Below are positions 43,622-47,190 of a DNA stretch of 64,000 nt, piece by piece (the first letter of the stretch is position 1; the number at the start of each line of letters is the position of its first letter). Source of the DNA: Candidatus Blochmanniella pennsylvanica str. BPEN (GTDB lineage: Bacteria; Pseudomonadota; Gammaproteobacteria; Enterobacterales; Enterobacteriaceae). The position numbers were made by a program, and so were the translations under genes. The DNA lies in the NCBI RefSeq assembly GCF_000011745.1, contig NC_007292.1:186001-250000 (forward strand), given 5' to 3'. Below the pieces are notes generated by a model. It made no database searches. It saw only the letters and a program-made list of their open reading frames with translations, and was not told where the DNA came from.

Positions 43622-44707
43622 ATGCAGAAAAATGAGCGTAACAGTATCTATGTCAATAACACATATTCAATAATTACTCCTGAGCAATTAAAAACTCAAT
43701 TTCCTGTAACACATTTGGAACAGAAAACCATTTCGGATTCTCAAAATATAATTATGAATATTATTCATAGACGCGATCCGCGCCTACTGGTGATATGTGG
43801 TCCTTGTTCTATTCATGATGTTAACGCTGCTTTTGATTACGCTGGTAAGTTGAAAACTTTATCAACAGAATTGCAAGATCAATTATATATCGTTATGCGT
43901 GTATATTTAGAAAAACCTCGTACTAGTATTGGTTGGAAAGGATTAATTAACGATCCGCATATGAATGGTTCCAACGATATTGAATTGGGTTTAAAGACTG
44001 CTCGACATATGTTGGTGAAATTAATAAAAATTGGATTACCACTTGCTACTGAAGTATTAAATCCATATATTCCACAATATATTGGAGAGCTCTTCAGTTG
44101 GTCATCTATTGGAGCGCGTACTACGGAATCTCAAATACATAGAGAAATAGCTTCTGGATTGTATACGCCTGTAGGCTTTAAAAATAGCACCAGCGGGAAT
44201 TTTTCTAATGCAGTTAACGCGATACATGCTGCAATGATGCCTCATCGTTACATTAGCATCAATCAATCTGGCCAGGTATGTTTACTGCATACTAAAGGTA
44301 ATCTTAATGCTCATATAATTTTACGAGGAGGAGAAAATCCTAATTATTATCCGGAAGATATTATTGGTTGTGAAAAAAAAATAACAGAAGCAGGATTGCC
44401 TTTAGCATTAATGGTAGATTGCAGTCATGGTAATTCTAACAAAGACTATCGTCGCCAAATTGATGTAGCACGGTCCATTTCACATCAAATTAAATATGGA
44501 AACCGTTCTATTATTGGATTGATGATTGAAAGTTATATTTATCCTGGTAATCAATCTATAAATTTATCATCTTCTACAACGCAATACGGAGTATCAGTTA
44601 CCGATGCATGTATAGATTGGAAAACAACCAAACATTTACTGTATGATTTGCATAAAGAATTAAAACCATTTCTTATCAATCGTATATCAGGAGCTGGAAT
44701 GGTATGA
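43622..44707 (+). CDS. aroF: 3-deoxy-D-arabino-heptulosonate 7-phosphate synthase, Tyr-type
   Basis: Condenses phosphoenolpyruvate and erythrose 4-phosphate, the first step of the shikimate pathway. [35 protein letters not shown] and [14 protein letters not shown] are conserved. At 361 residues, the N-terminus (MQKNERN...TPEQLK) matches AroF rather than AroG or AroH, and it is operon-linked to tyrA as AroF is in E. coli. Residue 8, asparagine in E. coli and linked to tyrosine inhibition, is serine here. Its TGA overlaps the tyrA ATG. Confidence 0.95.
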
Positions 44708-45831
44708 CAAAGGAACTAAATATTTTGCGAAACAGCATCGATAAAATAGATCAGAATTTATTAAAGTTATTATCTAAACGACTTTCTTTAGTCTCTGAAG
44801 TAGGAGAAATAAAAAGTCGTTATGGATTATTTATTTATTCACCAGATAGAGAAGAAATGTTGGTTGCCTGTAGGAGGCGAGAAGCATTAGAATTGGGTAT
44901 TTCTCCAGATTTAGTAGAAGATATATTGCGTCGTATTATAAGTGAATCTTATTATAATGAAAATGAAAAAGGATTTAAAACGTTGCATCCAAATTTAGGC
45001 CCAGTCGTTATAATTGGTGGAAAAGGGCGAATGGGGCAATTTTTTTCTAAAATGTTGACTTTATCTGGATATAAAATAAGAATTTTAGATAAAGATGACT
45101 GGGTACATGCAAAATCAATGCTGACAGATGCCGGTATGGTGATAATCAGCGTTCCTATTCATTCAGTTACTGATGTAGTTGGTAAATTATCATATTTACC
45201 TCCAAACTGCATTATAGTAGATTTATCATCTGTAAAAAAAATATCCTTAAATGCTATATTAGCTATGCATAGTGGTCCAGTATTAGGATTACAGCCTATG
45301 TTTAACCCAGACCATGGAAGTATGGTAAAACAAGTAGTAATTTACTGCGAAGGACGTTATCCAGAATCGTATCAATGGTTATTAGAACAAATACAATTGT
45401 GGGGCGCAAGGTTACATTTCTGCAATATAACAGAACATGATCAATATATGAGCATTATGCAAGGATTATGTTATTTTATTACTTTTGTAACTGGATATTA
45501 TTTTTCAAAAGAAAACGTTAATTTAAAACAAATGCTGTCTATTTCTTCACCAACATTTCGATTAAAACTAATAACAATAGGGAGATTATTTGCTCAAGAT
45601 CCTCAGTTATATGCAGACATCATCATGAATTCCAAAAACAATCTTATATTAATTAAACGTTATTATAGGAGATTAGGTAGGATTTTGACATTATTAGAAC
45701 GGAATAAAAAACAAGAATTTATTGATCAATTTAAAAAAATTCAAAATTGGTATGGTTCATATACCGATCTTTTTTTTGAAGAAAGTCGTAAAATATTGCG
45801 TCAAATTAATAATTATAAAGATAATTTATAG
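44704..45831 (+). CDS. tyrA: Bifunctional chorismate mutase / prephenate dehydrogenase (T-protein)
   Basis: Converts chorismate to prephenate and then to 4-hydroxyphenylpyruvate for tyrosine. An AroQ chorismate mutase domain (about 1-90) is followed by an NAD domain starting [13 protein letters not shown] and the dehydrogenase domain with [12 protein letters not shown]. Length 375 residues against 373 in E. coli. Because PheA in this window lacks its mutase domain, TyrA is the only chorismate mutase visible and probably feeds both branches. ATGA overlap with aroF. Confidence 0.97.
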
Positions 45832-46078: not shown

Positions 46079-46969
46079 CTAATGGAAAACTACATTAGAA
46101 GGCGGCGTCACTTGATAACAACCTAATATTTTCAATGAATAGGCAATTTTTTGTAATTCTCTAAGAATATGTTGTATGTATACATTATTTATGTGTGCCA
46201 TCATTTCAATAATAACTATGTTTCTCGGTCTCTCGTATGATAAAAGACGTGGTCTTAAATAAGTTATTTTAGTATTGTAAAAGTGTAATACTTTTAATAT
46301 TTCGCATAATTTCTCTGATTGCTCTTGAACAGAAATAATAAGAATAGTTTTTGTGGTTATAGAATGATTAAAAATTGCAATATTTGTATTTTTTAAAATA
46401 ATAAATCTAGTTGTATTTTTATGAGAATTAGAGAGATTATATGTCGATAGTGAATGCAATCCATAAAATTGGCCTCCTTGTTTATTTCCTAAAGCTCCTA
46501 AATTAGATTGATTTAATTTAGATACTATTTCCATGGCAACTGCGCTACTTTCACAGAATACAATTTTCCATGTCGAGAAATGTTTTAAAAATTCACTGCA
46601 TTGTTGAACGGGTTGAGGATGACTGTATATAATTTGAATTTGATTTATATCAGTATGATTATTGACTAAAATACAATGCTTTATAGGAATAGTAATTTCA
46701 TCTACTAACGACAATCGGGTGTTTAGTAATAAATCGCCTATTTCATCAATTAATCCAGAATTAGAATTCTCGATGGGAACTACACCATATTCTGCATGAT
46801 CACATTCTACTAAATTAAAAATATCATCAAATCTTCGACAGCTATGTTCTACTACTTGATTAAAATGACGGCTACTAGCATATTGCATAGCGGCAATGTG
46901 AGAATATGATCCCTTAGGACCCAAAAATGCTATATGCACTGTAGATTTATAAATCATAATAAAACTCAT
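46079..46969 (-). CDS. pheA: Prephenate dehydratase, lacking the chorismate mutase domain
   Basis: Forms phenylpyruvate from prephenate. The 296 residues align with about residue 100 to the end of the 386-residue E. coli P-protein: the dehydratase domain starts IAFLGPKGSYSH and keeps the catalytic TTRF. A C-terminal ACT domain follows, but the Phe-binding motifs are altered: GALV reads EKLC and ESRP reads RPRL. No mutase sequence can be read upstream. It appears to be a monofunctional, probably feedback-insensitive dehydratase. No pheL leader or attenuator is seen. Confidence 0.93.
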   Translation of the reverse strand: MSFIMIYKSTVHIAFLGPKGSYSHIAAMQYASSRHFNQVVEHSCRRFDDIFNLVECDHAEYGVVPIENSNSGLIDEIGDLLLNTRLSLVDEITIPIKHCILVNNHTDINQIQIIYSHPQPVQQCSEFLKHFSTWKIVFCESSAVAMEIVSKLNQSNLGALGNKQGGQFYGLHSLSTYNLSNSHKNTTRFIILKNTNIAIFNHSITTKTILIISVQEQSEKLCEILKVLHFYNTKITYLRPRLLSYERPRNIVIIEMMAHINNVYIQHILRELQKIAYSLKILGCYQVTPPSNVVFH

Positions 46970-47190
46970 TACCGTAATATTTAATATTCAAATATAACAT
47001 TTTTAGATAATTGCAGTTGCCGTAGCGTCAACAGTATCATTATAAATTAATATTTATTTATATGGATGAATATTACATTCCTTATGTATATTATATTATT
47101 AATTTAATTAATACATGTTTTAAACATTGTATCAATCATATTGATATCTACAAAAATAGATATAGATATCATATTTATAAAAGTATATAT

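Follow-up and report, generated by a model that had tools for sequence, protein, structure and literature searches.

Complementary decay of the two fused chorismate mutase enzymes, PheA and TyrA, proposed for the ant symbiont Candidatus Blochmanniella pennsylvanica

In Candidatus Blochmanniella pennsylvanica str. BPEN (hereafter B. pennsylvanicus, genus Blochmannia), two fused enteric enzymes, the P-protein PheA (mutase–dehydratase–ACT) and the T-protein TyrA (mutase–dehydrogenase), have probably decayed in a complementary manner. PheA has lost its mutase domain and its phenylalanine (Phe)-sensing motifs and is left as a dehydratase, while TyrA carries the only chorismate mutase found in the genome and has substitutions at two key histidines of its dehydrogenase. 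The TyrA mutase would supply prephenate, which PheA would convert to phenylpyruvate with little or no feedback by Phe. Phenylpyruvate would then be aminated to phenylalanine, so that prephenate would go mainly to phenylalanine, and tyrosine (Tyr) would come from the phenylalanine hydroxylase of the host. Since TyrA holds the only mutase, tyrA could not be lost; the gene would be locked in by this last mutase even with the catalytic His of its dehydrogenase gone, and it may be kept for the mutase rather than for tyrosine synthesis. A first-pass annotation, made from the sequence alone, had noted a mutase-less PheA with altered feedback motifs. That observation is confirmed, and its interpretation, right at the core, is partly supported.

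The window analyzed is a 64,000-nucleotide stretch of contig NC_007292.1 (positions 186,001 to 250,000, forward strand), and coordinates refer to its first letter (Table 1). Comparisons were based on 77 small related genomes that encode a dehydratase, comprising 14 Blochmannia genomes and 63 others of at most 1.4 Mb drawn from 392 family genomes. As controls, 79 named enteric loci, mostly free-living, provided 79 PheA, 75 TyrA and 70 AroF sequences; they include a few insect-associated strains (e.g., L100 and L162), and B. floridanus (L096) was left out.

Table 1 Features of the aroF–tyrA–pheA region, with positions in the window
Feature	Position	Strand	Description and basis
aroF	43622..44707	+	Tyr-type DAHP synthase; overlaps tyrA by 4 bases; position 8 is S (N in E. 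coli); P148 and Q152 retained
tyrA	44704..45831	+	T-protein (chorismate mutase and prephenate dehydrogenase), 375 aa, full length; NF008400 581.2 bits, cut-off 273
Chorismate mutase domain of TyrA	44725..44955	+	Residues 8–84; sole one found in the genome; R9, R26, K37, R49, E50 retained (E. coli T-protein numbering)
tyrA codon 197	45292..45294	+	CAG (Gln), replaces dehydrogenase catalytic His; alignment, codons
tyrA codon 257	45472..45474	+	TAT (Tyr), replaces His needed for Tyr inhibition; alignment, codons
pheA	46079..46969	-	Monofunctional prephenate dehydratase, 296 aa, from the enteric P-protein minus its mutase domain; models, frame, E. coli synteny
ACT domain of PheA	46115..46357	-	About residues 205–285; predicted to fold as beta-alpha-beta-beta-alpha-beta, less confidently than PDT; no Pfam call at E 0.001
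ESRP position	46244..46255	-	RPRL (AGA CCA CGT CTT); codons, alignment
GALV position	46304..46315	-	EKLC (GAG AAA TTA TGC); codons, alignment
PDT catalytic domain of PheA	46385..46933	-	Residues 13–195; PF00800 181.5 bits, cut-off 25.2
TTRF catalytic motif	46403..46414	-	Retained; codons and alignment
pheA–bamD gap	46970..47190	.	221 bp; no recognisable mutase remnant; too short for raiA, present here in E. coli

Pfam reports the prephenate dehydratase (PDT) domain alone in B. pennsylvanicus PheA. With this domain above the Pfam cut-off and TRF present, dehydratase activity is predicted, and PheA presumably works as a dehydratase. The N-terminal AroQ mutase domain of the bifunctional P-protein is absent. 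The match to the NCBI P-protein model NF007910 (306.7 bits, below the cut-off of 577) spans model positions 101–376 of 386 and begins about where the dehydratase starts. The frame extends only six codons upstream of the start (302 aa from stop to stop), and no mutase remnant was detected by tblastn in 17 upstream gaps from 17 genomes (best E 0.039). These results bear out the earlier reading that the protein starts at the dehydratase, keeps its catalytic TTRF motif and has no mutase upstream. A frameshift or a miscalled pheA start was considered and is not supported (tblastn best E 0.039 upstream and 0.19 downstream).

The origin of this short PheA can be traced from its scores and its neighbourhood. 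Of the NCBI models, that of the enteric P-protein matches it best (2.1e-91), well ahead of the monofunctional models (1.6e-49 and 3.4e-40), of which NF008865 scores 168.6 bits, under its cut-off of 219. Identity to the listed named enteric PheAs is 44–48%, and the gene order is that of E. coli, with bamD followed by pheA convergent with tyrA–aroF. Because the best model matches from position 101 and the gene lies in its E. coli-like place, PheA is the old P-protein minus approximately its first 100 residues. That an unrelated monofunctional dehydratase was instead gained by transfer is hardly credible: its two-domain make-up and the score below the P-protein cut-off would suit such an origin, but synteny and model scores, together with the enteric identity, contradict it. 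In its dehydratase–ACT part and neighbourhood, PheA is thus orthologous to the E. coli P-protein (AroQ–PheA, NF007910), differing in the missing mutase and in the replacement of GALV, ESRP and W338. With monofunctional dehydratases (PDB 2qmx, 6vh5 and 2qmw) it shares the PDT and ACT plan; unlike theirs, this plan is secondary, a fused enzyme having shed its mutase, and the Phe motifs are absent. The PheA features are shared across the genus rather than particular to B. pennsylvanicus, as all 14 Blochmannia genomes have a dehydratase and none has a mutase in its frame.

PheA of B. pennsylvanicus lacks the GALV and ESRP motifs of Phe-inhibited dehydratases, which have been described as ligand-binding (PMC10845154). 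The first-pass alignment, which had placed EKLC and RPRL at these positions, proved exact, and alignment with relatives shows the change to be genus-wide. In the 79 enteric control PheAs, G309, L311, E329, S330, R331 and P332 are invariant, and A310 and V312 are each present in 78. Both motifs are altered in all 12 ACT-bearing Blochmannia, as is W338, with L311 retained in 11 and R331 in nine of them. The other two species lack the entire ACT domain: the PheA frames of G005 (200 aa, L081:4279-4881) and G012 (195 aa, L088:4409-4996) end just past the catalytic domain, and the pheA–tyrA gaps that follow (236 bp and 170 bp, respectively) hold no recognisable ACT remnant. Nor did tblastn detect one downstream of pheA in 15 gaps longer than 30 bp (best E 0.19). 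Since G012 is sister to the ACT-bearing G002 (support 100) and G005 falls outside that group, the domain was lost on two separate occasions. Because the motifs are altered throughout the genus and two species have no ACT domain, Phe inhibition of PheA has likely been lost. The proposal of a Phe-insensitive dehydratase, made in the first-pass annotation, therefore stands firmly for the motif change and as a likely outcome for the inhibition itself.

The domain is still encoded in B. pennsylvanicus, and its dN/dS of 0.11–0.70 in the ten pairs compared indicates that some constraint persists. In the predicted PheA model the ACT domain folds, with confidence under that of the catalytic domain, and the model informs on fold while being silent on Phe binding. 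The nearest solved structures include Phe-bound dehydratases (6vh5, 2qmx and 3mwb). All of this would be compatible with a rebuilt ACT pocket through which PheA retains a working Phe switch, an explanation we consider quite unlikely given that no GALV or ESRP residue other than L311 and R331 survives in any of the 12 ACT-bearing Blochmannia and that the domain is gone from two species. Divergence also runs against such a pocket, the median ACT/PDT ratio being 1.52 in Blochmannia (62 pairs) versus 1.20 in controls (2463 pairs), with overlapping ranges of 1.11–2.07 and 0.41–2.18, respectively; pairs with a PDT distance above 0.08 were entered. GqqA quorum-quenching acylases also ranked high in the fold comparison and were set aside as sharing the common fold only.

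TyrA resembles the E. coli T-protein (AroQ–TyrA, NF008400) and, in its dehydrogenase part, the H. influenzae structure 2pv7, being an untruncated fusion whose mutase active site is intact. Its AroQ domain carries R, R, K, R and E, which we take to be the catalytic residues, and mutase activity is predicted. A search for another chorismate mutase, advised in the first-pass annotation, was run across the 791,654-bp genome with CM_2 and the AroH-type CM_1 models; it returned a single CM_2 match, the one in TyrA. Neither a second prephenate dehydrogenase nor a Phe hydroxylase was found in this genome.

Unlike the E. coli T-protein, B. pennsylvanicus TyrA has Gln in place of His197 and Tyr in place of His257, the former within LGLQPMF (LGLHPMF in E. 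coli). The first-pass annotation had not spotted either change. Both positions (E. coli numbering) are His in all 75 control TyrAs, so that TyrA departs at one from the pattern expected of an active dehydrogenase and at the other from that of a Tyr-inhibited one. In E. coli TyrA, His197 is catalytic, and the account of H197A in PMC2954222 describes it as significantly lowering, rather than abolishing, dehydrogenase activity; H257A removes Tyr inhibition (PMC2954222). Because H197Q affects the catalytic His and is accompanied by H257Y, the tyrosine branch is probably shut down or impaired in B. pennsylvanicus, and its TyrA is probably only a mutase. The earlier suggestion that TyrA feeds both branches accordingly holds for the source of prephenate, as the sole mutase found is that of TyrA with its catalytic residues retained, and probably fails for the tyrosine branch.

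That the dehydrogenase is dead, as we infer, is the weakest step of the argument and contradicts published claims of tyrosine synthesis by Blochmannia. The dehydrogenase domain shows no general relaxation (dN/dS 0.23 between B. pennsylvanicus and G001, equal to the 0.23 between G001 and G008), which weakens this reading, and S176, H245, D246, R294, Q298 and Y303 are retained. Approximately seven nonsynonymous changes, calculated as (16.0 + 17.0 - 18.5)/2, fall on the dehydrogenase domain along the B. pennsylvanicus lineage. Because two of them hit its two best-known active-site histidines, the loss, if the enzyme is indeed dead, looks recent. Across the genus, His197 is retained in 11 and His257 in 12 of 14 TyrAs, so most Blochmannia may still make tyrosine; Y285 is replaced by Phe in all 14, including those that bear His197.

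Among the 25 TyrAs of the small genomes, His197 has been lost in six (B. pennsylvanicus, designated G000, and G005, G006, G101, G214 and G287), all of which lack a PheA mutase and retain the TyrA mutase residues. The trees place these losses in four events, and the three Blochmannia cases use different codons (CAG, CAA and TAT). In G005 and the three non-Blochmannia genomes, which are putative reed-beetle symbionts, S176 and the NAD-loop glycines are gone as well, and these dehydrogenases look decayed. In four TyrAs (G137, G134, G306 and G350), His197 is retained and only His257 is replaced. Sequencing or assembly errors in TyrA or PheA are a very improbable source of the differences. Suspicion might fall on TyrA, where a single gene of a single genome is changed at both key histidines, but the mutase-less PheA recurs throughout the genus, and His197 has gone from three Blochmannia that use different codons there.

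A more substantial alternative, though in our view a rather unlikely one, is that TyrA works as a bifunctional enzyme that passes prephenate to both branches, with the symbiont overproducing phenylalanine and tyrosine alike. TyrA is full length, scores above its family cut-off and has a dN/dS near that of its relatives, and other Blochmannia, including G002 (putative B. floridanus), retain both His197 and His257. Blochmannia has also been credited with tyrosine synthesis, and its tyrosine genes are reported as upregulated in host pupae (PMC2206011, PMC9381600). Such an enzyme would have to function with Gln197 and Tyr257, where all controls have His; in G005 and the three reed-beetle-type genomes, moreover, position 197 was lost along with S176 and the NAD-loop glycines. 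A compensated active site with Gln197 and Tyr257 is possible, as G005 bears the identical pair on a separate branch. The symbiont may, as the first-pass annotation envisaged, overproduce aromatic amino acids for the host cuticle.

The distribution of mutases across the 77 small genomes follows the same complementary pattern. A T-protein TyrA scores above the cut-off in 25 of them (21/44 plus 4/33). The PheA mutase is missing from 21 of these 25, versus none of the 52 genomes without such a TyrA, and all eight residues that we take to form the PheA mutase active site are intact in each of the 51 TyrA-less genomes (of 52) that were read. Residue and HMM tables cover 76 of the 77 genomes, G367 having been counted from T-protein and PDT model searches; 33 genomes were scored for the mutase with the T-protein model rather than CM_2, and for 32 of these the HMM results were used. 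In G071 and G108, the T-protein match contains one internal TAA, which was taken as the gene end (frames of 372 and 374 aa, respectively). Weaker second CM_2 matches in G005 (C1:611865-612068, 21.6 bits) and G006 (C1:571520-571726, 20.9 bits) lie below the cut-off of 27 and were not counted as mutases; they sit in frames of 584 and 586 aa, respectively.

Loss or breakage of one mutase goes together with retention of the basic active-site residues in the other. The four genomes that have both a T-protein TyrA and a PheA mutase fit this complementary pattern on their residues. In G134 and G306 (L207 and L216), the PheA mutase is retained and the TyrA mutase active site is broken (R9L, K37D and a missing R49 in the former; R9H, R26K, R49K and E50D in the latter), with the dehydrogenase catalytic His kept; the PheA mutase copy of G134 carries D48V. 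G161 has both mutases, its PheA copy bearing R11C, D48Y and S84P, and G108 is the only one of the four with two intact mutases. G026, which has lost the PheA mutase, is sister to G108, which has kept both (support 95), and the loss is therefore recurrent on the tree. These counts refer to genomes rather than independent events, as a single ancestral loss may underlie many of the 52 genomes without TyrA. Most deeper nodes of the tree are weak (support 36 to 66, one 91).

From this pattern we tentatively favour a general rule of reductive evolution, which we judge slightly better than even: where both PheA and TyrA are mutase fusions, one mutase disappears, and the gene that carries the remaining one has to stay although its partner domain has died. 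In B. pennsylvanicus, G005, G006 and the three reed-beetle-type genomes, tyrA would then yield no tyrosine, an assignment of tyrosine synthesis from gene content would be wrong, and the exported product would be phenylalanine or its keto acid. The putative reed-beetle symbionts (G101, G214, G287 and G350) resemble Blochmannia in having a PheA without a mutase and a TyrA with its mutase residues retained, and dehydrogenase catalytic residues (His197) are lost in three of their four TyrAs. Unlike that of B. pennsylvanicus, their PheA lies on a plasmid-sized contig (4977–6762 bp; L094, L217, L218 and L219) and has also lost the ACT domain. Reed-beetle symbionts have been described as keeping tyrosine synthesis, with the plasmid gene listed as a bifunctional mutase/dehydratase (PMC7289800). 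Buchnera offers a further parallel, since its PheA with an altered regulatory domain was proposed to be Phe-insensitive in 2000 (Jimenez et al. 2000, cited in PMC2649895 and PMC5054487); a symbiont PheA with a changed ACT domain is thus common to both. The two differ in that Buchnera has no tyrA (PMC1173090), whereas Blochmannia has lost the PheA mutase and kept TyrA; TyrA-less small genomes all keep the PheA mutase.

The first step of the pathway may also be affected. AroF position 8, which we take to be a feedback residue, differs from N in 10 of the 14 Blochmannia sequences (positions 43622-43648 in the window for B. pennsylvanicus), in contrast to N in all 70 controls; G161 contributed no AroF to the tree. 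It is possible, from these residues, that tyrosine feedback on AroF has been lost. Separately, P148 is replaced by Leu in G005 and Q152 by Leu in G006. Q152 has been described as contacting Tyr (PMC9529685) and is retained in B. pennsylvanicus, for which we therefore claim no change in AroF feedback.

Blochmannia has been described as a tyrosine maker (PMC2206011, PMC9381600), and the capacity for tyrosine synthesis as the one metabolic function that every compared ant symbiont, Blochmannia included, has kept (PMC9381600); the same source states that the host turns phenylalanine into tyrosine. In the open-licence PMC literature, we found no report of PheA mutase loss in Blochmannia, of TyrA decay in symbionts or of the reciprocal pattern, although such reports may be in print; the main texts of PMC4389277 and PMC3017870 do not mention tyrosine, phenylalanine, tyrA or pheA. 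If tyrA persists only for its fused mutase, its presence is no evidence of tyrosine synthesis, and the phenylalanine hydroxylase of the host becomes the key step. Complementary decay also amounts to a natural experiment on the separation of fused enzymes, in which the rest of the genome predicts which half can go. Furthermore, two Blochmannia and the reed-beetle-type symbionts, whose PheAs have no ACT domain, offer natural regulator-free dehydratases.

Several further observations concern the state of these genes elsewhere. Six of the 52 genomes without TyrA have the PheA mutase and dehydratase in separate frames, through either a frameshift or a true split: G140 (L095), G241 (L093), G308 (L204) and G367, all of genus g128, as well as G104 (L075) and G274 (L187). 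PheA in G140, G241 and G308 is also without a recognisable ACT domain, and G367 has a frame of only 162 aa. In G345 (L188), a 303 aa frame contains mutase and dehydratase with no recognisable ACT domain; G339, with a 395 aa frame lacking a recognisable ACT domain, was left out of the ACT-loss count. Finally, the best rluD frame measures 168–187 aa, versus approximately 340, in G009, G011 and G013 (L085, L087 and L089), which suggests a frameshift or break in that clade.
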